Source: Oscillospiraceae bacterium (lineage in GTDB: Bacteria; Bacillota; Clostridia; Oscillospirales; Ruminococcaceae). From it: a stretch of 64,000 nucleotides of DNA. Of this stretch, positions 2,327 through 32,804 are shown in pieces. The position numbers were made by a program, and so were the translations under genes. The notes below the pieces were generated by a model. That model was not told the DNA's origin. It ran no database searches and saw only the letters and a list, made by a program, of their open reading frames with translations. The stretch lies in assembly GCA_017472965.1 (NCBI GenBank), contig JAFUNR010000009.1:1-64000 (forward strand). The letters run 5' to 3'. Numbering within the stretch: the first letter of the stretch is position 1; every line of letters begins with the position of its first letter.

Positions 2327-2595
2327 AACAACGATACAGGCTGGGATGAAGAGGGCTTTTGTGCAATGCTTTTGCCAGAGAGCTGCCGGTGGTGCAAGGC
2401 AGCGAAAAGCGCACAGGAGCTGTCGCTTCGGAGCCGGAACGGTGAAAGCTGCGGCGCTGCCGCGATAGCCGTTCCCGTCACTCCGCGTTACGGAGCAATC
2501 GAGCGGCACGCAGTTTTTTGCGTGCAATCTGGGTGGTACCGCGGTTTTTGAAAGAAGATCGTCCCTTGTGCAGCTTGCTGCACAGGGGATTTTTT
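2327..2595 (+). ncRNA. T-box riboswitch controlling valS
   Basis: The leader shows the T-box parts in order. The stem I distal loop motif (CAGAGAGC, then a GGTGGTGCAAGG-type segment) lies around 2378-2403. A specifier region, tGTCgCTTCGGAGC, at about 2421-2434 has GTC (2422-2424), a valine codon, in the expected place. The invariant T-box sequence TGGGTGGTACCGCGG is at 2530-2544. An intrinsic terminator follows (stem TCCCTTGTGCA/TGCACAGGGGA, 2562-2589, then a T-run). Uncharged tRNA(Val) is expected to pair with the T-box and the specifier, form the antiterminator and allow valS transcription. The specifier codon assignment is by pattern and by the downstream gene. Confidence 0.92.
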
Positions 2596-7348: not shown

Positions 7349-8235
7349 CATCTGCCTCCTAATCTCTCATAGCTCTGTGCACCGAACAAGCCCTGCACCT
7401 GCCCTGTGCGAAAGCGTTCCTTACAAAAAGCCAGCGTCACCCGCACTGAACAGCCGTTGATGACAGCCTGCACTGTAAGCGCCGGTGCAAGCAGCATGCC
7501 AGCCGCGGTACGCAGCGGCACCAGACGAAGCCCCGCAGGCAGCATCCGGGCAGCGACCGGTGCTGAAAACCATTCTTCCAGCTTTGTGCGCAACACATCC
7601 ATCTGCCGATTTTTCACGGAAACAGTTCTTTTTTGCAGCGTGTCCGGCCACGAAAGCAGCAAAAGCGGCTGTTCCAGCAGCGCATCCTGTGCGCTCATGC
7701 CGGAATCAATGAGCACCTCGGCATACAGCGTTTCCCCGTTCAGCAGGACCTCCGTCCGGACGATTTTATCTGACCGGGGCGCATCAAACAACACAAGTAC
7801 AAGCCGCAGCACAAAATACAGGACCAGGATACACCCCACCAGCAAAAGCGGCGGCACATCGTAGTAAAATGCCAGATTGTTACGCCGCACCGCATTAAAA
7901 GAAAGCCAGTATACCGCCGCAAGCACCAGCCCCGAATAACACAGATTGAGCAGAAAATACCAAAACCACAGCCGTGCAAAGCTGCGCAGCCGCCGCACCC
8001 GGAAAGCCGCCAGCAGCACTGCTGTTCCCGCTGCCAGCTGGTAGAGCAGCTGTACCCACAGCGGCAGCGGCGGTGCAAGAAATATCAGTGCACTGGCTCC
8101 GCCCAGTGCACCACCCAAAAGCAGCCGCCGCCATCCGGGCATACAGCCGGTGAGCACCGCTGTGCCGACGAGTAAAAAATAATCGACAATCCAGTTGATT
8201 GCCAACAGGATATCGATATAAATCACCGCATTCAT
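7348..8235 (-). CDS. spoIIGA: Sigma-E processing peptidase SpoIIGA
   Basis: 295-residue membrane-bound aspartic protease that matures pro-sigma-E in the mother cell after a forespore signal. It starts with [19 protein letters not shown], the family signature, and has about five membrane segments in the first 170 residues. A cytoplasmic protease domain with the catalytic LIDSG motif (Asp about 177) follows. The ATG at 8235 is preferred because AGGGTG precedes it by 6 nt; an ATG at 8241 sits on that ribosome binding site. It overlaps sigE, so the two are translationally coupled. The promoter immediately upstream carries a Spo0A box (see 8255-8288). Confidence 0.93.
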
Positions 8236-8254
8236 TTGCATCACCCTGCGTGAC

Positions 8255-8288
8255 AGTATAACACATAGCTCCGCAAAAGACTGTCGAA
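8255..8288 (-). promoter_or_regulatory. spoIIG promoter with overlapping Spo0A box
   Basis: On the minus strand TCGACA (8287-8282, five of six matches to the -35 consensus) and TATACT (8260-8255) are separated by 21 bp, longer than the usual 17. TGTCGAA, a perfect Spo0A box (TGNCGAA), occupies 8282-8288 and so overlaps the -35. The same architecture (over-long spacer plus 0A box at the -35) is the known basis of Spo0A-P activation of spoIIG in Bacillus subtilis. Confidence 0.75.
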
Positions 8289-8298
8289 GTATGCTGCA

Positions 8299-8343
8299 CA
8301 AAAAAGACCGCTGCGAAGCTGTTTTTTACTCCGCAGCGACCTT
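8299..8343 (-). terminator. Intrinsic terminator after the ComEA-like gene
   Basis: Imperfect GC-rich stem (8304-8318 with 8329-8343) followed on the minus strand by TTTTTT. It separates the lspA-to-ComEA operon from the spoIIGA promoter. Confidence 0.75.
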
Positions 8344-8351
8344 ATGATTTA

Positions 8352-8810
8352 TTATTCTGTTCCGATACAGATCCGATCCTTCAATCCGTCAAAGAGTTTT
8401 TCGCCGATCCCCTCCACCTGCAGCAGCTGCTCCGGCGAGGTAAATCCGCCGTTTGCCTGCCGCCATTCAAGGATCGCCTGCGCTTTGGCGGCGCCGATCC
8501 CCGGCAGTGTGCACAGCGCGGCAATATCTGCAGCATTCAGATCCAGCTTTTCCCCCTCGGCCATATCGGCAAAATACTCCGTCACCGGCATCTGCGGCCA
8601 TTCGCCCCACAGCGGGAACGCAGCTGCCAGCACAAGTAATACACCGGCGCACAGCAGGCAAACCCACAAAAACGGCCGACGGAAAAGAGTCTCCCCGGGA
8701 GCAAAGATTTCCCGCCGCTTTTCTGTCAGCGGCATTTCGGCAGCAGAGGATTTCGCTCCGTTTTCAGACACTTCCCGCTGCTCTGCTGCAGCTTTTTCTG
8801 TCTGTTCCAT
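8352..8810 (-). CDS. ComEA-like helix-hairpin-helix membrane protein
   Basis: 152-residue protein. It has a charged N-terminal tail of about 43 residues, one membrane helix (FLWVCLLCAGVLLVLAAAF) and a C-terminal pair of helix-hairpin-helix motifs (LNAADIAALCTLPGIGAAKAQAIL and QLLQVEGIGEKLFDGLK). This matches the DNA-binding end of ComEA, the double-stranded DNA receptor for transformation, but the SLBB domain found in many ComEA proteins is absent. The ATG overlaps the stop of the upstream HAD gene (TGATGG), so start and coupling are clear. Whether it serves DNA uptake is unproven; full-length ComEC and ComFA are not in the window. Confidence 0.8.
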   Translation of the reverse strand: MEQTEKAAAEQREVSENGAKSSAAEMPLTEKRREIFAPGETLFRRPFLWVCLLCAGVLLVLAAAFPLWGEWPQMPVTEYFADMAEGEKLDLNAADIAALCTLPGIGAAKAQAILEWRQANGGFTSPEQLLQVEGIGEKLFDGLKDRICIGTE

Positions 8811-9655
8811 CACAGCGCATACTCCATAAGCCGGTTGAGGAACTGAGCCACACCGCCCTCGCTGCAGCTTCCGGTGACAAGATCAGCCCAGCGCTGCACC
8901 CGCGCAGGCGCATTGGCCACTGCCACGGCAAAGCCCGCAGCCTTCAGCAATTCGATGTCGTTATCGTAATCGCCGATGGCGAAGGAGTTTTTCTGCTCCA
9001 CACCCAGAATGCGGCACAAACTGCGCAGTGCTGTGCCCTTGCTGATACCGGCGGGCAGCACCTCAAAATAAATCGGCGCGGTGCGCTGGAAAAGCAGTTC
9101 ACTCTCCTGTGAAAAATGCGCCGCACAATATTTTTCCGCAGCGATGCAAGCTGCGGCATCACCGGCACAAAGCACCTTGAACCAGCGTCCCGGCACCTTT
9201 TCAGCATCTGCCCAGATGGCCGCAAAGCGCTCATCCCGCAGATGTCGCTCACTGCCCGCACCGGCACGCACAATATAGGTCTGCAGGTTTTCTGTCATGA
9301 TCTCAAAGCTCATATCGGGGAATTCCCGCATCAGTTCCAGCAGTACAGGCAGCGCCTTTTCCCGGGAAATATAGTGGGCATTGAGCGAAAGCTCCCGTTC
9401 ATAATCGTAAATCAGGCCGCCATTGAGCAGAATTACCGGCGCATTGACGGGCAGCTGCTCCAGATATCGCCGTGCCGAAGGCACATTTCGCCCCGTGGCA
9501 AGAGTAAAGCTGCCGCCCAACATACAAAAGCGACGGATAGCCTCCAGATTTTCCGGCGGCAGACCGGTAGTGCCGGACAGCAGTGTATTATCCACATCGC
9601 TGACGACCAGCATACCCGCCATCGGTTTTTCTTTGCCGCATTCTGCTCTTTTCAT
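8810..9655 (-). CDS. HAD-superfamily phosphatase (Cof/YidA type)
   Basis: 281-residue haloacid-dehalogenase-type hydrolase. Motif I is VVSDVDNTLLSG near residue 15-25, motif II appears as TLATGR, and the C-terminal motifs III/IV are KGTALRSL and AIGDYDNDIELLKAAGFAVAVANA. A cap domain lies between, as in type IIB Cof proteins that dephosphorylate sugar phosphates, nucleotides or similar metabolites. The real start is ATG 9655, with AGGAGG upstream; the open frame continues 86 codons further but only through rluD. It overlaps rluD by 4 bp. The substrate cannot be assigned. Confidence 0.85.
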   Translation of the reverse strand: MKRAECGKEKPMAGMLVVSDVDNTLLSGTTGLPPENLEAIRRFCMLGGSFTLATGRNVPSARRYLEQLPVNAPVILLNGGLIYDYERELSLNAHYISREKALPVLLELMREFPDMSFEIMTENLQTYIVRAGAGSERHLRDERFAAIWADAEKVPGRWFKVLCAGDAAACIAAEKYCAAHFSQESELLFQRTAPIYFEVLPAGISKGTALRSLCRILGVEQKNSFAIGDYDNDIELLKAAGFAVAVANAPARVQRWADLVTGSCSEGGVAQFLNRLMEYAL

Positions 9656-10587
9656 TGGGCAGCCTCCTGCAAAAGCCCGCATTTGCGTACAAACGCGGTG
9701 AAATAATCCGGCAGCGGCGCATGAAAATTCATGTGCTGACCGGTGATCGGATGGGTAAAGGAAAGCTCGGCGGCGTGCAGACACTGACCGGCAAGCTCGG
9801 TGATGACGCGGCGCGGGCCATAAACCGAATCGCCGGCCAGCGGATGTCCGATCGAAGCCATATGCACGCGGATCTGATGGGTACGACCGGTTTCCAGCCG
9901 GCATTCGATCCACGAAAAGCCCCCGCTCTGTGAAAGAACGCGGTAATGCGTAACGGCATTTCGGCCGTCCTTCATACCGGCTTTCATCTTTTTACGGTCA
10001 GCGGGATCGCGGGCAATAGGCGAATCCACGGTGCCTTCCTCCACAGAAAAACCGCCGTAGCACACCGCATTGTAGACACGGGCAATGTGATGTCCTTCCA
10101 GCTGCGCCGCCAGGCCGGTATGGGCCTCGTTGGTTTTTGCCACCACCAGCAGGCCGCTGGTATCCTTATCGATGCGGTGAACGATACCGGGACGGATCTC
10201 GCCATTGATACCGGAAAGCTGTCCACGGCAATGCCAGAGCAGGGCATTGACCAGCGTTCCGTCCGGATTTCCCGGTGCGGGATGCACCACCATACCCTTG
10301 GGCTTATTGATAACCAGCAGAAAATCATCCTCATAGACCACATCCAGCGGAATATCCTGCGGGATCACGGCGATCTCCACCGGCTCGGGACGCTCCAATT
10401 CCACGGTATCCCCTGCGGCAACACGCAGACTTTTGGAAACCGTGCGTCCATTGCAGCGCACCGCTCCCTTTTCCATCAGCTGCTGCAGCGCACTGCGGGT
10501 CAGATCCGTCACACCCGCAAGCCACGCATCCAGACGGCTTCCGGCAGCCTCTGCCGGCACCACAAAGCGTTCTGCCTCATTCGGCAT
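9652..10587 (-). CDS. RluD-family 23S rRNA pseudouridine synthase
   Basis: 311-residue pseudouridine synthase with an N-terminal S4 RNA-binding domain (SRLDAWLAGVTDLTRSALQQL) and a catalytic domain. The invariant Asp is in RPGIVHRIDKDTSGLL, with downstream motifs ETGRTHQIRVHMASIGHPLAGD. It converts uridines in helix 69 or another 23S site to pseudouridine. The start is ATG 10587, preceded by AGGAGG and overlapping the 3' end of lspA by 11 bp. The lspA-rluD order is common in Firmicutes and supports assignment to this family; the exact modified positions are not visible. Confidence 0.9.
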   Translation of the reverse strand: MPNEAERFVVPAEAAGSRLDAWLAGVTDLTRSALQQLMEKGAVRCNGRTVSKSLRVAAGDTVELERPEPVEIAVIPQDIPLDVVYEDDFLLVINKPKGMVVHPAPGNPDGTLVNALLWHCRGQLSGINGEIRPGIVHRIDKDTSGLLVVAKTNEAHTGLAAQLEGHHIARVYNAVCYGGFSVEEGTVDSPIARDPADRKKMKAGMKDGRNAVTHYRVLSQSGGFSWIECRLETGRTHQIRVHMASIGHPLAGDSVYGPRRVITELAGQCLHAAELSFTHPITGQHMNFHAPLPDYFTAFVRKCGLLQEAAQ

Positions 10588-24656: not shown

Positions 24657-26084
24657 ATGAATTACTGTCCGACTGTCGCCATCGTCCCATTGGGACACTA
24701 CGTATACTTCCAGCAATTTGAAGGGCTTTATCAAGAGCTTTCCCAAAAAGCTGCCGCTTTCGCCGAGCACTTTGATGCATCCACCAACGTCATTGTCACC
24801 GATTACGTGGATACGGTGGATGCCGCCATCGCCACGGCCCGCGATCTGAAAGCCAAAGATGTGGACGGCATTTTTATGCTGCTGACCACCTATCTTCCCT
24901 CCGCGCTGGCCGCCCCCTTTGCCCGGTACCTGGATGTACCGCAGATCCTCGTCGCCGTGCAGCCGCTGGCACATCTGGATTACAAACACTGCACCACCTA
25001 TATGCAGCTCGCCAATGACGATGTCTGTGCCATGCCGGAGATCAGCGGCGTATACGCCCGGCTGGACCGCACCGTGCCGCCCTGCATCGTCGCCGCCGAC
25101 TGCCAGCAGGATTCCCTGCGCCGCGAGGTGTGCAGCTGGCAGCACGCCATCGCCGCCAAAGCCGCCTTCAAATACCAGAAATTCGGCTATCTGGGCCACA
25201 CCTACGAAGGTATGTACGATATGCACACCGACCCCACCGCCTTTTATGCCACCTTCGGCGCCCATGTACAGATGCTGGAGATGTGTGAACTGGCCGCACT
25301 GACAGAGGCAGTTGCTCCGGCAGCTCTTGCGGAAAAAACGCAGTGCATCCTTGACACCTTCTCCATTCAGGATCCCTCCGTCGATCCGCTGACCGACCAT
25401 GTGCAGCCGGAGGATCTGGCGTGGTCGGCCCGTATCGCCTGTGCGCTGGACGCCCTGATCGAAAAACACGGTCTGCGAGCACTGGCTTATTATTATAAAG
25501 GCGAAGCCGGCAACCTGTACGAGCGCATCGGTGCCGCCATGATCGTCGGCAATACCCTGCTGACCAGCAGCGGTACACCGCTCGCCGGTGAGGCGGATCT
25601 GAAGACGGCCGCCGCCATGCTGATCCTTCACGCCCTGGGCGGCGGCGGCAGCTTTGCCGAGATCCATCCTTTTGACGTGACGGAGGATTGCGTTCTCGTC
25701 GGGCATGACGGTCCTCACAATATCGCCATCAGCCACGGCAAGCCCGTGCTGCGCAAGCTGAAAAAGTACCACGGCAAGGCCGGCAGCGGCATCGGTGTGG
25801 AATTCAGTCTGCGCACCGGCCCCGTAACGCTGCTGAGCATCACCTACCTCGGCAACGGTCGCTTCAAGATGGTGGCGGCCAGCGGCATTTCCGTGCCGGG
25901 GGATATTCCGCAGACCGGCAATACCAATACCCGTGTGCAGTTCCCCATGCCCGTCACCGAATTCCTGCGCCGCTGGTGCGAAGCAGGCCCCACCCATCAC
26001 TTTGCGCTGGGCACCGGGGATCTGACGCCCGAACTGCGCAAGCTGGCGCGCATCATGGATATCGATCTTGAGGTGATCGGGTGA
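24657..26084 (+). CDS. L-arabinose/L-fucose isomerase-superfamily protein
   Basis: 475-residue protein of the sugar-isomerase superfamily that interconverts aldoses and ketoses with a divalent metal. The N-terminal part has the Rossmann-like FucI/AraA N1 fold. The C-terminal part carries candidate metal ligands: Glu in GEADLKTAAAMLI, a second acid in SFAEIHPFDV, His in VGHDGPHN and a late His in AGPTHHFALGTG. These correspond in order to the Glu-Glu-His-His set of AraA. Identity to true AraA appears low, so the substrate (arabinose, fucose, rhamnose or an uncommon sugar) is open. Start ATG 24657 with AAGGAGG. It pairs with the downstream glycosidase. Confidence 0.75.
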   Translation: MNYCPTVAIVPLGHYVYFQQFEGLYQELSQKAAAFAEHFDASTNVIVTDYVDTVDAAIATARDLKAKDVDGIFMLLTTYLPSALAAPFARYLDVPQILVAVQPLAHLDYKHCTTYMQLANDDVCAMPEISGVYARLDRTVPPCIVAADCQQDSLRREVCSWQHAIAAKAAFKYQKFGYLGHTYEGMYDMHTDPTAFYATFGAHVQMLEMCELAALTEAVAPAALAEKTQCILDTFSIQDPSVDPLTDHVQPEDLAWSARIACALDALIEKHGLRALAYYYKGEAGNLYERIGAAMIVGNTLLTSSGTPLAGEADLKTAAAMLILHALGGGGSFAEIHPFDVTEDCVLVGHDGPHNIAISHGKPVLRKLKKYHGKAGSGIGVEFSLRTGPVTLLSITYLGNGRFKMVAASGISVPGDIPQTGNTNTRVQFPMPVTEFLRRWCEAGPTHHFALGTGDLTPELRKLARIMDIDLEVIG

Positions 26085-26132: not shown

Positions 26133-29132
26133 ATGCTGGATCAAGAATTTCTCACCCCCGCAGACTGGTGCCGCGGCACGGACTTCTGGATGCTCAACGA
26201 CAAACTGGATGAGGATGAGCTGCGCCGTCAGCTGCGGGATATGCGCGCACAGGGCGTGGGCTGCGTCATCGTGCGCACCTATATCGGTCTGCGCTCGGAT
26301 TACCCCGGCAAAGACTGGATGGAAAAGATGCACGCGGTGGTGGACGAGGCCCGTGCCGTCGGCATGAAGCTTTTTATGCAAGCCGGTTACATGCCGGAGG
26401 CCGTCATCGGTCTGCCGGAAAAATTCTCGCTGGGCGATATCCGCTGCTATCCCGCCGGATGCGGCGAAGGCCGGGTGCTGGATACCCACAACGGCGTGGA
26501 TTACTGCCTGGTCTCCTCCCGCACGATCCTGGATATGCTCTCGCCGGAGGCTTGCGCCTTTTATGTGCAGCAAAGCTACGAAAACATGTGGCGGGATTTC
26601 AAGGATGAATTCGGCAAGACCATCATCTCCCTGTGGGTGGATGAGCCCAGCTTTGCCAAAACCTCGCTGCCGTGGACGGAGGGACTGCCCGCCGCCTACC
26701 GTGAGCTGTGGGACGAGGACCTCCCCATGGAAAAGCTTCACCTGCTTTTCATCGACGGCGAGGGTGACCGTCTGCTGCGCCTGCGCTACTGGCGCACGGT
26801 GCTGCACCTTTTGAAAAATGCCTATTTCCGTTCGGTGCAGCAGTGGGGCAAAGAAAACAACATCCTGTTCAGCGGGCATCTGATGCAGGAAGATTACATG
26901 GACACGCAGATCTTCTCCACCGCCTTTACCATGCCCCTTTACAAATACTTCGATATCCCCGGCATCGATTTTCTCACCGCCGAAATGAACTGGCGGCACG
27001 GGCGCATCAACCCGGAGAAACGCTTTTTCTATCAGTGGTCACACCATGGCTCTTACGTGACGCCGCTGCAGTGCACCTCTGCGGCGCATCAGGCGGGGCA
27101 GAATGTGATCCTTGCCGAGATGTACGGCGTCAGCACCGAAAATCTGGGTCTGCGTGACCAGAAAGCCATGTTTGACCACTTCGCCTCCCTCGGCATCAAC
27201 CACCGCAGTGTTCACGGCATCTTTTACTCCCTGCGGGGCCGCGGCAAGCGCGCCTTCCCGCCGCACGTCAACAGCTACCAGCCCTACTGGCCCAAATACC
27301 GGATGCTGACGGATACTGTCGCCCGGGAAAGCGCCTTCCTGCGGGCGGGTAAACCGGTAAAGGATATCCTGCTGCTGCACCCCATCGAAACCGGCTTCTC
27401 TCTTTTCCACGGGCAGACGCGGGACGGCGTCCGCCACAACGAAACGCTGCGCCGCTATGATACCGGCTTCTGCCAGACGGTGCGCGCCATGGTGGGGATG
27501 CAATTCAATTTCGAGCTGGGTGACGAGGACACCATCGCCCTGATGGGGCGTATTGAAAACGGACAGTTCCACGTGGGCGAAATGGCCTATTCCACCGTCG
27601 TGCTGCCGGATATGCACTATCTGCGTGCCTCCACCCTGGCCCTGCTGCAGCAATTCATCACCGCCGGCGGCAATGTGGTCATACTGGGCGGTGCGCCGCA
27701 CACACTGGATACCGGCTGTTCCTGCGGTGCGGATGCGCTGGCGGGTGCGCAGTTCGTCCGCAGCATCAGCGCCCTGAAAAACGCCCTTACCGCCGCCCCC
27801 CGACGCTATTGGTTTGAAAAAAGAGATGACGACACCGGCGTGCAGATCCTATGCCGTCAGGACGCCGGCGACCTCCTCTTCTTCCTCGCCAACGGTGACT
27901 ACAGCCGCGGCGCCGCCGGCAAACTGACGGTTCCCGGCAGTTGGGAGGCACAGCTCTTTGAGCCGCTACACGGCAGCATCACCGCCGCCCCCGCCGTACA
28001 GGAAAACGGCGTCACCCGTGTGCCGGTGGAGCTGACCGAGGGTGGCAGCCGTATGCTGCGTCTGCGCCCGGGCAAGGCCGCCGCCCCTGTGCCTGCGGCG
28101 GCAGCCGTTCGTCTGGCCATGCCCGACGGCTGGCGCTTTGCCCGTGAAAACGAAAATGCGATGGTGCTGGAAATGTTCCGCTTTGCCCGTGACGGCGAGG
28201 AGCTGAGCGAACTCACCTTCCCCGTGCTGAGCATTCAGGAACAGCTTTTGCAGGAAGGGTATCATGGCGATCTTGTGCTGGAGACCCGGTTCCGTCTGGA
28301 AAAGGAGCTGAGCGGCCTGCAGCTCGTGACAGAGCGTCCCGAGCAGCAGACTCTGCTGCTGGACGGGCAGCCGCTGGACAACACCCCGAACGGCAGCTAC
28401 CGCTGCTTCGCTTTTGAAACCCTTCCGCTGCCCGCCCTTGCCGCCGGGGAACACACCCTGACCGTCCGCCGGCATTTCGAGCCGATGCGCAAGCCGACCT
28501 CCTCCGTGACATCGCTGTTTGAGGATTTGGGCGGCGTGATGCTGGAAGCCATGATGCTGATCGGCGATTTTGCGGTGCACGCCGCACCGGAACCGGCGAT
28601 CGAAGGCTGTATCCGTCTGAATGACGATATGATTCTGGGCGATGAGGACACCGTCTGCGGTGATGAGCTTGTCTGCCGCGGTTATCCCTTCTACGCCGGC
28701 ACCATGCTGCTGGAAACCACCGTCACCCTGCCGGAACATGTGAAAAACGCAAGATTCTGTCTGGAAGGTCTGCACGCTGCGGCGGCGGAAGTGTTCCTGA
28801 ACGGAGAGAGCTGCGGCATGCTGGCGTGGGCCCCCTACAGTGCGGCACTGAAAAACGCCAAACCCGGAAAGAACACGCTGAGCATCCGTCTGTACGGTAC
28901 GCTGCGCAACCTGCTGGGCCCGTGGCATCGGCCGGTGGGCGAAATCGGTGCCTGCTGGGGCGGTTACGATGTACCGGATCAGCCGTGGCTGGGCAGTCTG
29001 GCACATGAAAATGACCAGCGCTACCCCGACTGGCACCTTGACCGCACACCGGATCGTCCCGGCTGGACGGAGAGTTATCTGCTGGTGCCCTTCGGCGTGG
29101 TAAAGCCCACACTGGAATGGGATCCGGAATAA
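26133..29132 (+). CDS. Large glycoside hydrolase, GH106-like (putative alpha-L-rhamnosidase type)
   Basis: 999-residue cytoplasmic protein. Residues about 10-420 look like a TIM-barrel with the GH106-style opening (TDFWMLNDKLDEDELRRQL) and a candidate acid in SLWVDEPSF. A Rossmann/GATase-like segment follows (about 480-560, VVLPDMHYLR...NVVILGG), as in GH106 and related families. The last 350 residues hold beta-sandwich, carbohydrate-binding-like domains (FCLEGLHAAAAEVFLNGESCG). No signal peptide. GH106 members release L-rhamnose from pectic oligosaccharides; the family call here rests on overall layout, not on a search. A following terminator ends the operon with the isomerase gene. ATG 26133 follows AAAGGATG. 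Confidence 0.6.
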   Translation: MLDQEFLTPADWCRGTDFWMLNDKLDEDELRRQLRDMRAQGVGCVIVRTYIGLRSDYPGKDWMEKMHAVVDEARAVGMKLFMQAGYMPEAVIGLPEKFSLGDIRCYPAGCGEGRVLDTHNGVDYCLVSSRTILDMLSPEACAFYVQQSYENMWRDFKDEFGKTIISLWVDEPSFAKTSLPWTEGLPAAYRELWDEDLPMEKLHLLFIDGEGDRLLRLRYWRTVLHLLKNAYFRSVQQWGKENNILFSGHLMQEDYMDTQIFSTAFTMPLYKYFDIPGIDFLTAEMNWRHGRINPEKRFFYQWSHHGSYVTPLQCTSAAHQAGQNVILAEMYGVSTENLGLRDQKAMFDHFASLGINHRSVHGIFYSLRGRGKRAFPPHVNSYQPYWPKYRMLTDTVARESAFLRAGKPVKDILLLHPIETGFSLFHGQTRDGVRHNETLRRYDTGFCQTVRAMVGMQFNFELGDEDTIALMGRIENGQFHVGEMAYSTVVLPDMHYLRASTLALLQQFITAGGNVVILGGAPHTLDTGCSCGADALAGAQFVRSISALKNALTAAPRRYWFEKRDDDTGVQILCRQDAGDLLFFLANGDYSRGAAGKLTVPGSWEAQLFEPLHGSITAAPAVQENGVTRVPVELTEGGSRMLRLRPGKAAAPVPAAAAVRLAMPDGWRFARENENAMVLEMFRFARDGEELSELTFPVLSIQEQLLQEGYHGDLVLETRFRLEKELSGLQLVTERPEQQTLLLDGQPLDNTPNGSYRCFAFETLPLPALAAGEHTLTVRRHFEPMRKPTSSVTSLFEDLGGVMLEAMMLIGDFAVHAAPEPAIEGCIRLNDDMILGDEDTVCGDELVCRGYPFYAGTMLLETTVTLPEHVKNARFCLEGLHAAAAEVFLNGESCGMLAWAPYSAALKNAKPGKNTLSIRLYGTLRNLLGPWHRPVGEIGACWGGYDVPDQPWLGSLAHENDQRYPDWHLDRTPDRPGWTESYLLVPFGVVKPTLEWDPE

Positions 29133-30078: not shown

Positions 30079-30107
30079 TTTTCATTTGTGCGGTTTGCTG
30101 TTATAAT
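30079..30107 (+). promoter_or_regulatory. Promoter of the UroD-like / AraC-corrinoid operon
   Basis: Perfect TATAAT (30102-30107) in an extended TGtTATAAT context, with TTTTCA (30079-30084) 17 bp upstream. The flanking DNA is AT-rich. No cobalamin riboswitch was recognised between promoter and gene. Confidence 0.6.
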
Positions 30108-30157: not shown

Positions 30158-31126
30158 ATGAACAGCACCGAACGCGTACGCAATGTCATTCTCGGCAAGC
30201 CCGTTGACCGTCAGCCCATCTACGGCTGGGTCGCCGCCAATCTGGAAAAGCCCATCAGGGAAAAATGGGGCTCTGTCGAAGCCTTTGAGGATCTTTACGA
30301 ATTTGATATCGCCCACATCTTCGGCGGGCCGCACCCCTATGACGAGGAGCTTCTGGACCGTCTGCGCAACGACGAGGAGGAGATGACCCCCGAGCTGCTG
30401 CTGGATGTGGATTTCTTCACCGATCCCGACAACATTGCAGCCTATCAGAATATTGAGGATGCCGTCAAATTTCACAAGGAGCGCGGCCGCTTCTGCTATG
30501 TGCAGACCCCCGGCTTCTTCGAGCCGTTCAACGGCGTATTCGGCATCGAAAACCATCTGCTGTATCTGGCCATGTACCCCGATGAGCTCAACGAGCTTTA
30601 CCGCCGTCAGGCTGAATGGACGCTGCGCTTTATCGACCACTGTGTGGAGCGCGGTGTGGACATGATCCACTTTTCCGACGACTGGGGCAGCCAGAACAGC
30701 CTGCTCTTCAACCCGAAGCTGTGGTGGGAGATCGTCTTCCCCCACATGAAGAAGGTGGTGGACTATGCCCACAGCAAGGGCGTGTTCGCCAGCCTGCATT
30801 CCGACGGCTGCGTGGCCAGCGTAGCGGACGGTATCGCCGAGATCGGCTTTGATGTGGTACATCCCTGGCAGGAAAATGCCGGCATGGGCCACGACCTGTA
30901 TCTGGAAAAATACGCGGATAAATTCGCCATTCTGGGCGGCATCTGCGTGCAGTCCGCCATCGGTCTGCTGCCGCAGGAGCAGCTGGGCGAGGAGATCCGC
31001 CGCGTTTTCAACAATCTGCGCGGCAAGCGCTGGATCTGCTGCACCTCACACTTTGTGCAGGATCACTGCAGCATCGAGGATCTGACCTTCGCTTACGACC
31101 TGATCTACAAGCTGGCACGGGAATAA
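30158..31126 (+). CDS. UroD-family protein, probable corrinoid methyltransferase
   Basis: 322-residue TIM-barrel protein of the uroporphyrinogen decarboxylase superfamily (MtaA/CmuA-like branch). It shows the family opening (TERVRNVILGKPVDRQPI), a central VDMIHFSDDWGSQ strand-loop and FASLHSDGCV. The His (and possibly Cys) of that last motif sits where MtaA-type enzymes hold zinc for methyl transfer. GGICVQSAIG follows. The Arg pattern expected of true heme-pathway HemE is not evident and no heme genes are near. Members of this branch move methyl groups between a substrate or coenzyme and a corrinoid protein. The next gene, 24 bp on, encodes a corrinoid-binding domain, which fits that role. 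The substrate is unknown. ATG 30158 with AAGGAGA. Confidence 0.75.
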   Translation: MNSTERVRNVILGKPVDRQPIYGWVAANLEKPIREKWGSVEAFEDLYEFDIAHIFGGPHPYDEELLDRLRNDEEEMTPELLLDVDFFTDPDNIAAYQNIEDAVKFHKERGRFCYVQTPGFFEPFNGVFGIENHLLYLAMYPDELNELYRRQAEWTLRFIDHCVERGVDMIHFSDDWGSQNSLLFNPKLWWEIVFPHMKKVVDYAHSKGVFASLHSDGCVASVADGIAEIGFDVVHPWQENAGMGHDLYLEKYADKFAILGGICVQSAIGLLPQEQLGEEIRRVFNNLRGKRWICCTSHFVQDHCSIEDLTFAYDLIYKLARE

Positions 31127-31150
31127 GCCCGCTGGGAAAGGACACACGGC

Positions 31151-32713
31151 ATGAACACCTCCGGCCTTCCGGTCCGCTCAGCCAAAGAGAACTTTTTCAA
31201 GGATACGCCTTTATTCCAGAATGCCGTCACCTGCCGGCAGCTCTACACGGACGAGATCGGACTGTCCGATCTGCATTTTCACGATTTTATCGAGGTGAGC
31301 ATCGTCACGGAGGGCGCCGGGATCCACCGGATCTTCAACAGTGAGCTGGAATGCGCCAAGGGAGATATCTATATCCTGAACACCGGTGTACCGCACGGCT
31401 ATTTTGCCCGCAGTGAAAATGAGTGCCCGACCGTCTGCAATCTGCTGTTCGATGCCGGCAGCTGGTTTCATCATGCGGAGGCCCGCCCGGATGACCCGCA
31501 CTTCTGCTACGGCATTTTCCAAAGCAACCCGCCGTTTTCCTATGCGGTGCTGACCCCTGATGTGCTGGATGATGTGATGCATCTGTATCACTCCATCGAG
31601 CAGGAGACCGATGCCCGACGCGCGGACTGGCTCGATGCGGTGCGCTCCTACCTGACGCTGCTGCTGGTCACAGTAGGCAGATATGTCAACCGCGCCGAGC
31701 AGACGGCTGCGCTGCACAGGAACTGGTTTCTTGTGTCTGCAGCCATCCGGATGGCTGCGGAGCACATCGGCGAGCCGGATGTGACGCTTGGCGATATCGC
31801 CGCATCGCTTCACATCAGCAAATCCTATCTGAGCCGGCTTTTTCACCGGATCACCGGCACGGCGTTTTCCGAATATATGCTGCATTCCCGCCTGCAGCGT
31901 GCGCAGCGGCTTCTGCGGGAAACGCAGCTTTCCAACGCGGAGGTCGCCGCTGCCTGCGGCATGCGGGACATTCAGGGCTTTTACCGGCTTTTTAAAAGCG
32001 AGACCGGCATGACACCGCACAGCTTCCGCCGCATGCATACCGAAAACGCATCTGCTGCCGCCGCGGCTCATACCGCGATGCTGCTGGAAAAGCTCTGTGC
32101 CGCAGTGCAGCACGGCCGCATTCAGGAGATGGACGATGCCCTGCGGCAGGCGCTGCAGCAGCCACTCTCCGCCGAAGAGATCCTGCGCGGCGGTCTGCTG
32201 CCGGGCATGAGCATCATCGGGCGGCGCTTTCGCAGCAATGAGGTTTATATCCCCGAGGTGCTGCTTGCCTCCCGCGCCATGAATCATGCGCTGCAGCAGC
32301 TGCAGCCGCTGCTGATCGGCTCGCCGCAAAAGCGCAGCGACCGCATTTGTATCGGCACGGTGCAGAGCGATCTGCATGACATCGGAAAAAACCTTGCCCG
32401 CATCATGCTGGAAAGCAAGGGCTTTGATGTGATCGATCTGGGCGTGGATGTTGCACCGGAGGTTTTCATTCGCACGGCACTGGAACAAAACTGCCGGCTG
32501 ATCTGCTGCTCTGTGCTGCTGACCACCTCCATGAATTCCATGGCCGCGCTGGTACAGCTGGCCGACCGGATGCAGGTTCGCGACCGCTTCAAAATACTGG
32601 TGGGCGGTGCCCCCGTCACCGAGGATTTCTGCCGCCGGATCGGCGCGGATCTGTACGCCGCCGACGCCACCACCACCGCCGAGCTGGCCGAGGCCTTTTT
32701 CGACGGGGAATGA
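31151..32713 (+). CDS. AraC-type regulator fused to a corrinoid (B12)-binding module
   Basis: 520-residue fusion. Residues about 38-90 form a cupin sensor (LHFHDFIEVSIV ... YILNTGVPHGYF). Residues about 192-296 form an AraC DNA-binding domain with two HTH units (LGDIAASLHISKSYLSRLF; AEVAAACGMRDIQGFYRLF). After an Ala-rich linker, 308-388 match the helical cap of methyltransferase corrinoid proteins (GMSIIGRRFRSNEVYIPEVLLASRAM). Residues 395-520 are a B12-binding Rossmann domain with all hallmarks: D407-x-H409-x-x-G412, S454-V-L456 and G485-G486. H409 would be the lower cobalt ligand. The cap lacks the Trp...Glu-His arrangement of the CarH photoreceptor, pointing to a methyl-carrier type of corrinoid. 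It is cotranscribed with the UroD-like gene. No frameshift or internal ribosome binding site suggests two separate genes. Confidence 0.88.
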   Translation: MNTSGLPVRSAKENFFKDTPLFQNAVTCRQLYTDEIGLSDLHFHDFIEVSIVTEGAGIHRIFNSELECAKGDIYILNTGVPHGYFARSENECPTVCNLLFDAGSWFHHAEARPDDPHFCYGIFQSNPPFSYAVLTPDVLDDVMHLYHSIEQETDARRADWLDAVRSYLTLLLVTVGRYVNRAEQTAALHRNWFLVSAAIRMAAEHIGEPDVTLGDIAASLHISKSYLSRLFHRITGTAFSEYMLHSRLQRAQRLLRETQLSNAEVAAACGMRDIQGFYRLFKSETGMTPHSFRRMHTENASAAAAAHTAMLLEKLCAAVQHGRIQEMDDALRQALQQPLSAEEILRGGLLPGMSIIGRRFRSNEVYIPEVLLASRAMNHALQQLQPLLIGSPQKRSDRICIGTVQSDLHDIGKNLARIMLESKGFDVIDLGVDVAPEVFIRTALEQNCRLICCSVLLTTSMNSMAALVQLADRMQVRDRFKILVGGAPVTEDFCRRIGADLYAADATTTAELAEAFFDGE

Positions 32714-32758: not shown

Positions 32759-32804
32759 CAGTACAAAAACAGCAGGCCTTGGTTGGCTTGCTGTTTTTGT
32801 ACTG
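32759..32804. terminator. Long inverted repeat, bidirectional terminator
   Basis: 19-bp arms (32759-32777 / 32786-32804) with one mismatch, containing A5 and T5 tracts and an 8-nt loop. It ends the UroD/AraC-corrinoid operon. The right arm also carries the -35 element of the next promoter. Confidence 0.75.

Follow-up and report, generated by a model that had tools for sequence, protein, structure and literature searches.

We found that an AraC-type regulator encoded in the window, a 64,000-nucleotide stretch of an Oscillospiraceae genome, is fused in one open reading frame to a corrinoid carrier module, and that this fusion is real: the same one-frame architecture occurs in at least 27 relatives from at least 26 other genomes. 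In most fusion genes, a start signal at the junction could allow the corrinoid half to be translated alone, and we consider it probable that the fusion is a regulator whose sensor is a copy of the methyl carrier of its own pathway, one gene giving two products in 22 of 28 cases. We give roughly even chances to the more specific proposal that the signal is the methyl group on the cobalt, that the carrier is encoded once and translated twice, and that a freely evolving sensor results where the two jobs are split. The earlier note on this DNA had supposed such a fusion to be undescribed, and no description of it was found among the matches listed in our targeted literature searches.

The regulator lies 24 bases behind a UroD-type gene on the same strand (Table 1). 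As proposed earlier, it is a single frame, matched by the Pfam models AraC_binding, HTH_18, B12-binding_2, and B12-binding as well as by two HTH_AraC stretches, and its double helix-turn-helix (HTH) makes it a member of the AraC/XylS family. The earlier placement of a cupin and an HTH at residues ~38-296 was right as to the presence of both domains, but the cupin match is confined to the start of this region and residues 121-208 match no Pfam family at an E value of 0.001. No solved relative of the UroD-type protein (referred to as URO_win here) was found at an E value of 0.01. The promoter in front of the unit is a consensus match only, since the scanned 3.9 kb holds six promoter-like sites against 2.7 expected by shuffling, and the operator search upstream of the two genes returned weak repeats only. 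The inverted repeat behind the unit is absent from the output of the scan that gave the promoter.

Table 1. Features of the two-gene unit and its surroundings (positions in the window)
Feature	Position	Strand	Basis
Sigma-70-like promoter, TTTTCA-17-TATAAT, TG before second hexamer	30079..30107	+	10/12 consensus
UroD-superfamily protein URO_win, 322 aa, presumed corrinoid-dependent methyltransferase	30158..31126	+	URO-D 2.9e-15
AraC-corrinoid fusion regulator, 520 aa	31151..32713	+	ORF, Pfam and NCBIfam scans
Cupin/AraC_binding domain, residues 41-120	31271..31510	+	Pfam 1.2e-9
AraC helix-turn-helix pair HTH_18, residues 216-294	31796..32032	+	Pfam 6.3e-21
ATG, residue 310, at the internal-start place of relatives; no Shine-Dalgarno here	32078..32080	+	
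B12-binding_2 helical cap, residues 311-384	32081..32302	+	Pfam 3e-19
B12-binding Rossmann domain, residues 399-509	32345..32677	+	Pfam 1.8e-21
His409 codon within D-x-H-x-x-G	32375..32377	+	Translation
Inverted repeat with a T run at its end, possible terminator for the two genes	32764..32798	+	By eye

The corrinoid half is of the methyl-carrier type. Pfam and the translation agree with the earlier reading of a helical cap followed by a Rossmann domain with D407-x-H409-x-x-G412, S454-x-L456, and G485-G486, and the D-x-H-x-x-G motif is kept in all 27 complete fusions. We take His409 to be the lower axial ligand of the cobalt, a role known from the MetH family. The closest solved structures are 1y80 (5.5e-40), 4jgi, 7xcn chain M, and 3ezx, and sequence similarity to these solved carriers is enough to fix the fold of this half. 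The top NCBIfam models are MtgC (174.8 bits), pyl_corrinoid (145.4), and MtbC (138.5), all under their own curated cut-offs (370 for the best). Given that none of the named carrier families (MtgC, MtbC, MtaC, or pyl_corrinoid) is reached by cut-off, the window protein is a relative rather than a named member. Alternatively, this half could be a sensor of cobalamin supply or light like that of CarH/LitR, with AraC replacing MerR. Light-responsive fusions of an HTH to a cobalamin domain are known, and one published account gives W...EH as the light signature of such photoreceptors (PMC11796333); the CarH model does match the window protein, at 45.4 bits. However, this is far under the carrier scores, W...EH is absent from 27/27 complete fusions and the corrinoid part is without any Trp, Pfam shows an AraC-type HTH only and none of the MerR type, and the identified neighbors are methyltransferase-type genes. 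This upholds the earlier view of a carrier-type rather than a CarH-type cap. CarH-like light sensing was ruled out on motif and family scores, and the reading as a whole is very unlikely.

Many of the genomes here are drafts, which could favor an assembly or frameshift artifact, but the recurrence of the architecture, in relatives 37 to 47% identical to the window protein across the aligned part, rules this out for practical purposes. Counting the window gene, at least 28 fusion loci were found, spread over at least 27 genomes; six families of the class are represented, four of which belong to a single order. This count is a lower bound, as thresholds of 1e-60, 1e-72, and 1e-78 were used in successive searches and, except in one search, at most a few candidates were scored per genome. 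One fusion cut by a contig end (L071) is included in the junction counts, and is left out of the rate trees and the counts of complete motifs. No internal stop occurs among the listed rows that span the cupin to the corrinoid part, and the linker between the AraC and corrinoid parts is otherwise unalike among fusions. "Split" loci were rejected as an unfused form, since the stop-containing rows (L007-L009, L042, L043, L065-L067, L101, L102, L117, L118, and G280/L062) align only from query residue 192 or beyond. AraC genes were inspected at L057, L059, L062, L072, and L073, of which the two scanned (L062 and L072) are of the PocR type; a profile scan of the genome contigs gave a single weak AraC match (L003). 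The idea that the fusions form a single clade of the B12 tree was likewise dropped, as stand-alone copies fall inside it, with 8 label changes.

The link to UroD-type genes also recurs, in line with the earlier description of the partner: 23 of the 27 relatives have a firm UroD-type gene that adjoins the fusion and reads in the same direction. In L070, the UroD part lies inside the same 895-aa frame as the fusion (36.7 bits to URO_win), and for the three remaining relatives the link is weak or unclear, namely, L071 (URO-D at 3e-4, under the cut-off) and L108 and L112, whose neighbors have no URO-D match; other UroD-type genes lie near L071 and L108. Within 10 kb on the same strand, a RACE-type activator is found in 16/27 relatives and a DUF2284 gene in 15/27. 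Together with its URO-D match, the corrinoid, RACE, and MtaA-like genes around the relatives place the partner in a corrinoid-methyltransferase context. Homologs of URO_win scoring more than 500 bits lie near 5 of the 27 other fusions. Several fusion loci also have sugar genes close by, and two URO_win loci have altronate-type genes in their vicinity, the second of these identified by inspection. One genome holds 26 UroD-family matches.

At the junction, 22 of the 28 fusion genes carry an in-frame Shine-Dalgarno sequence and start codon, coinciding with the place where stand-alone corrinoid genes begin and resembling the ribosome sites of those genes. The duplex energy of the junction NTG is −7.3 or lower in these 22 genes (range, −7.3 to −9.5), a level reached elsewhere in frame by 45 of 842 NTG codons or, among ATG codons alone, by 11 of 430. 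Spacing from core to start is 8 to 9 nt in 19/22, and the core lies in phase 0 in 16 genes and phase 2 in 5 (one is unclear); this persistence in different codon phases argues that what is conserved is an RNA signal. The junction Gly codon is GGA in 15/15 (log10 p of −9.9 against each gene's own usage, a guide only since the rows are related). The junction site is the best among its own gene's in-frame NTG codons in just 12 of the 22, and in L054 as many as 7 of 30 others are as good. These 22 genes could yield a free carrier, a putative product, from inside the fusion gene. That the gene appears able to make the carrier alone in most relatives suggests that the switch reads the carrier's state. 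The earlier proposal of a regulator that is itself the methyl carrier fits the carrier-type module and the UroD link but is too simple, given the possible free carrier. The signal is missing from the window gene, L048, L050, L070, L104, and L113. The window's junction ATG has a duplex energy of −1.1, and no internal start is predicted there; L104 possibly retains a weak TTG start (−5.8).

These six lineages form a natural experiment, as each has another source of carrier. A separate carrier-type gene was found in 5/6 genomes without the junction signal versus 1/22 with it (Fisher p = 3.5e-4), and the sixth (G895) has a second fusion, with signal, in its genome. Reassigning L104 to the signal group weakens the association (p = 0.0034), as does also leaving out the window (p = 0.013); in L116/G1057, an internal start coexists with a separate carrier gene. 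Separate carriers may be missed, because many genomes are incomplete and the search threshold was 1e-25. MetH-sized frames (780 to 884 aa) were excluded by eye, as was G636 C514, a frame with corrinoid and UroD parts at the end of a contig, from the count of separate carriers. The record for the separate carrier gene of L050 has a frameshift that breaks the gene. The six also differ in rate: their median B12 tip branch is 0.68 versus 0.093 in the others (p = 1.4e-5; 6e-5 minus the window), whereas the AraC tips are similar (0.545 versus 0.463, p = 0.29). Mapped onto the AraC tree, the six cases require six changes, of which well-supported branches force five, and fused copies have longer branches than their stand-alone sisters (0.35 versus 0.069 in L048, 0.99 versus 0.14 in L113). 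L107, with signal, has a B12 tip of 0.356, longer than those of the signal-less L048 and L050. The faster B12 evolution where the signal is missing is possibly decay. Among 22 motif columns that are invariant, all six keep 20 to 22; of the other invariant columns, 53 in number, L048, L050, and L104 keep 51, the window 38, L070 43, and L113 44, which limits clear drift to the window, L070, and L113.

Two further readings have to be weighed against these data. The full-length fusion could be a working methyl carrier that gained a DNA-binding half, shuttling methyl groups while regulating, much as the trigger enzyme PutA offers a comparison. The earlier note had allowed for this, and the kept cobalamin motifs, the absence of another corrinoid gene beside the window's UroD gene, and the one relative with its UroD part in the same frame, which favors methyl transfer in cis, would agree with it. 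We nevertheless regard it as rather unlikely, as 22/28 genes keep a start for a free carrier while the other six have another source, and as the median B12 tip of those six is about seven times longer but the AraC tip is not. The second reading, in which only the AraC half matters, a cupin-AraC sugar regulator lying in frame before a carrier gene with the window's B12 part decaying, seems improbable to us. An AraC protein alone can serve, since in G120 a URO_win-type gene directly precedes an AraC-only gene of the same subfamily with no corrinoid domain, and no other fusion has a B12 part as diverged as that of the window protein. Yet no stop has entered the listed cupin-to-corrinoid rows despite the unalike linker, and the genes without an internal start keep their motif columns.

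Returning to the regulator with a carrier-derived sensor, the full-length AraC-corrinoid protein and a free corrinoid protein would arise from one frame through internal initiation. The free form, expected at about 23 kDa, would pass methyl groups from one of the operon's UroD-type methyltransferases to another. The full-length form, expected at about 58 kDa, would take up the same corrinoid, which the same enzymes would methylate or demethylate. Because the same corrinoid and enzymes would serve both forms, the regulator's cobalt would report the methylation or redox state of the carrier pool, hence substrate flux and cofactor supply, and together with the cupin domain would set how AraC binds the promoter of the operon. 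The window gene, lacking an internal start, is expected to give the fused form alone, and its corrinoid domain is therefore more probably a sensor than the working carrier. With cobalamin motifs kept and drift elsewhere, it looks like a dedicated sensor, predicted still to bind cobalamin and presumably controlling the UroD gene in front, and would be the most diverged case of a freely evolving sensor. The domain could still be a carrier there, given that neither a profile search nor a protein search run without a positive control detected RACE in the genome that the window comes from, which is 85% complete, and that this genome's other corrinoid gene, which sits among hydrolase genes, has no UroD match within 20 kb.

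To our knowledge, little has been reported on what turns corrinoid methyltransferase systems on. A genome may hold some two dozen UroD-family genes without assigned substrate, and a regulator with the carrier built in would couple an operon to the chemistry that it carries out and would make substrates easier to find. The mlp gene clusters combine UroD-type methyltransferases with a corrinoid protein and a RACE activator (Kountz and Balskus, PMC10418091); the word AraC is absent from the main text on these clusters, and a regulator-carrier fusion is not among the parts described in the accessible portion of that article. Stand-alone carriers (MtgC, MttC/MtbC/MtmC, 1y80, and 4jgi) match nearly the entire C-terminal half, including D-x-H-x-x-G, S-x-L, and GG, but have no regulator in front. 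The PocR-type regulators at L062 and L072 also adjoin a corrinoid carrier gene, as separate genes and with a PocR sensor instead of a cupin. CarH/LitR, the MerR-type B12-dependent photoreceptor repressors, share the arrangement of a DNA-binding domain, cap, and Rossmann cobalamin module; the fusion differs in its AraC domain, added cupin, carrier-type cap, and methyltransferase-type neighbors, and would, as far as we know, be the first B12 regulator reading catalytic state rather than light or vitamin supply. Ada is an AraC-type regulator switched by a methyl group accepted on Cys, and a methyl group transferred onto the regulator is also the signal proposed here. The Pfam scan of the window protein found neither the methyl-accepting Cys domain nor the DNA-methyltransferase domain of Ada; in the fusion, the methyl group would instead sit, reversibly, on the corrinoid cobalt, which would make the fusion an organometallic counterpart of Ada.

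The two-gene unit claimed in the earlier note was borne out, with a UroD-type frame lying 24 bases from the frame of the AraC-corrinoid fusion. Domain scanning likewise recovered the claimed architecture in a single frame, namely a cupin/AraC_binding domain, an AraC HTH, a B12-binding_2 cap, and a B12-binding Rossmann domain. The corrinoid module is of the methyl-carrier rather than the CarH type, as had been proposed: the nearest NCBIfam models of this half are methyl carriers, with MtgC at 174.8 bits (below the MtgC cutoff), whereas the CarH model reached only 45.4 bits, far behind the carriers. Its top solved-structure matches were 1y80, 4jgi, 7xcn-M, and 3ezx. The genes with weak GH106 and isomerase-like matches adjoin a divergent AraC gene and lie some 1 kb upstream of the two-gene unit.

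Features of the window and of related loci, with coordinates in the window or in the locus named
Locus	Positions	Strand	Feature
Window	2334-2569	+	T-box leader (Rfam RF00230, 104 bits)
Window	24657-26084		475-aa arabinose/sulfoquinovose-isomerase-like protein
Window	26133-29132		999-aa protein, weak GH106 match under Pfam cutoff
Window	30079-30107		Promoter-like site (sequence scan)
Window	30158-31126	+	UroD-type gene
Window	31151-32713	+	AraC-corrinoid fusion, 520 aa
L053	13794-15020		~410-aa operon protein, no Pfam match at 1e-5 (one member scanned)
L061 (window genome, contig C5)	9420-10088	-	Second corrinoid gene
L070 (G895)	7686-10373	-	AraC-corrinoid-UroD, 895 aa, single frame, no internal start
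L108	10870-11916, 11926-12969		Fusion neighbors weakly similar to UroD-like protein of L071, no URO-D match
L112	10998-11957		Fusion neighbor weakly similar to UroD-like protein of L071, no URO-D match
L149 (G120)	8165-10121	-	AraC of the same subfamily but with no corrinoid domain, immediately following a gene of the window's UroD subfamily
L151 (G636, contig C514)	1728-3137	-	Corrinoid and MtaA-like UroD domains in one frame running to contig end

A census of the fusion with its genomic neighbors, as the earlier note had suggested, showed that it recurs in 27 relatives, 37 to 47% identical to the window protein over the aligned stretch. The resulting 28 loci in 27 genomes are a lower bound, given overlapping draws, strict thresholds, and the few candidates scored per genome. 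With the window protein as the query, the family draw (197 genomes) yielded full-length fusions in the window's own genome and two others. The order draw (394 genomes) added 8 full-length fusions, the class draw (391 genomes) 3 loci in 2 genomes, one of them truncated by a contig end, and a second-family draw (196 genomes) 14 fusions besides 2 already known; all 5 fusions from a third-family search (20 genomes) were known. In a phylum-wide draw of 398 genomes, the fusion was found only in the window's own genome, and two other rows, whose alignments begin at residue 210, contain an internal stop.

In 23 of the 27 relatives, the fusion has a firm UroD-type gene as its immediate same-strand neighbor. 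In L070 the UroD part follows within the same frame, the URO-D match of the adjacent gene falls below the cutoff in L071, and the adjoining genes of L108 and L112, which lack such a match, are perhaps a different type of partner; other UroD-type genes lie near the fusion in L071 and L108. Within 10 kb on the same strand, a distance that contig ends cut short in some cases, we found the MtaA-like UroD type URO_SFP in 20 relatives, a further UroD type (URO_MTN) in 18, a RACE-type activator in 16 (RACo domains in the one member scanned), and DUF2284 in 15. The best solved match of one URO_SFP member was 4ay7, a methylcobalamin:coenzyme M methyltransferase, and homologs of the window's UroD gene above 500 bits occur near five relatives. 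These neighborhoods resemble corrinoid methyltransferase operons, with the fusion occupying the position of the carrier gene.

The L070 polypeptide unites regulator, carrier, and methyltransferase-like part, and the L151 frame may be the remainder of the truncated fusion L071, in which case there would be two triple fusions. The L149 unit corresponds to the window unit without its B12 module. Starts similar to that of the ~410-aa L053 protein were recognized by eye in L054, L105, L106, L108, L109, L115, and L116.

The linker between the two halves is unalike across the 28 fusions, except for one element, a Shine-Dalgarno sequence followed by a start codon in frame; past this, the sequence resembles the M-S-I-L-x-E-I-S-E-N beginning of stand-alone corrinoid proteins. 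This signal is present in 22 fusions (21 ATG, 1 GTG) at a duplex energy of -7.3 or lower to what we take to be the 16S tail; the same threshold is passed by 45 of 842 other in-frame NTG codons (11 of 430 for ATG alone), and the junction site scores best in its own gene in 12 of the 22. All 15 genes with Gly-Glu at the junction use GGA for the glycine, a codon that makes up 3 to 50% of their glycine codons elsewhere. For 16 genes the Shine-Dalgarno core falls in codon phase 0, for 5 in phase 2 (where it encodes K-E, K-K-E, or T-E-E; L115 is unclear), and its distance from the start is 8 to 9 nt in 19 of 22, which indicates that the signal is conserved as nucleotides while the encoded peptide varies. 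Among the matches listed that span both the cupin and the corrinoid part, none has an internal stop, and thus joint and free products both seem to be retained. Both this internal start and the association with UroD-type genes remain strong.

Six fusions lack the signal: the window copy, whose junction has an ATG and no Shine-Dalgarno sequence, L048, L050, L070, L104 (with a possible weak TTG start), and L113. We searched the 27 genomes for separate carrier-type domains at 1e-25, setting aside MetH-sized frames by eye. In these incomplete genomes, a separate carrier-type gene accompanies five of the six, adjoining the fusion in G404, G327 (where a frameshift interrupts it in its record), and G1056 and lying on another contig in G1075 and the window genome; the sixth, G895, has a second fusion with the signal. 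Among the 22 signal-bearing fusions, only L116 (G1057) has one (Fisher P = 3.5e-4; leaving out the window gives 0.0014, moving L104 0.0034, and both changes together 0.013).

Separate trees were built for the AraC and B12 halves (27 rows). Placing these six genes on the AraC tree takes six changes, and well-supported branches force five of these. The median B12 tip of the six is 0.68 versus 0.093 in the others (P = 1.4e-5; dropping the window gives 6e-5, moving L104 1.5e-4), although the groups overlap, L107 (GTG start) at 0.356 exceeding L048 and L050. Their AraC tips show no such lengthening (0.545 versus 0.463; P = 0.29). In one sister pair the fused copy measures 0.35 versus 0.069 for the stand-alone protein (support 100/95), and in a second pair, which lacks firm support, 0.99 versus 0.14 (88/77). 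The window has the longest B12 tip among the fusions, 2.35, a value to be read with its unusual composition and the dependence of tip lengths on sampling. Of the 22 motif columns that do not vary among the other 21 fusions, the six retain 20 to 22. A further 53 invariant columns lie outside the motifs; the window retains 38 of them, L070 43, L113 44, and the remaining three 51 each. Cobalamin binding seems to be retained, with drift at other positions that is greatest in the window. This would be expected if another gene had taken over the carrier job, leaving the fused copy as a sensor.

The window genome (2.9 Mb, 85% complete) contains one cobalamin riboswitch, two carrier-type corrinoid proteins with B12-binding_2 domains, and 26 URO-D family matches, a large set of methyltransferase-like genes with no assigned substrates. 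Around the second corrinoid gene lie GH43 and arabinofuranosidase-type genes, and none of the 78 frames in that 20-kb stretch matches UroD. RACo_C_ter had no match in this genome (the positive control matched in Methanosarcina), nor did a RACE protein used as the query, in a search run without a positive control; this absence is either a point against a standard system here or an assembly gap.

Sugar genes surround several of the loci. L050 has altronate-dehydratase-type and mannitol-dehydrogenase-family genes, L052 a rhamnose isomerase and a class II aldolase, and L054 a rhamnosidase; GH43, GH2, and GH3 occur in L106, L108, and L114, respectively. L149 has, by reading of the sequence, a similar pair (altronate-dehydratase- and tagaturonate-reductase-like). 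Purely as a guess, the substrates might be O-methyl sugars, e.g., methylated hexuronates.

In the literature searched, which lacks most subscription journals, none of the papers listed, among them PMC10418091, PMC11796333, PMC8407422, and PMC3306737, describes an AraC-corrinoid or similar fusion. In the mechanism that we propose, the full-length protein and the carrier would bind one and the same corrinoid, and the carrier's enzymes would also methylate, demethylate, and reduce the full-length protein. The cobalt state would then govern AraC binding at the operon promoter, with a second ligand possibly contributed via the cupin; the target in the window would be located close to the promoter-like site. 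The nearest idea to this proposal is Ada, an AraC-type regulator that is switched by the methyl group it receives.
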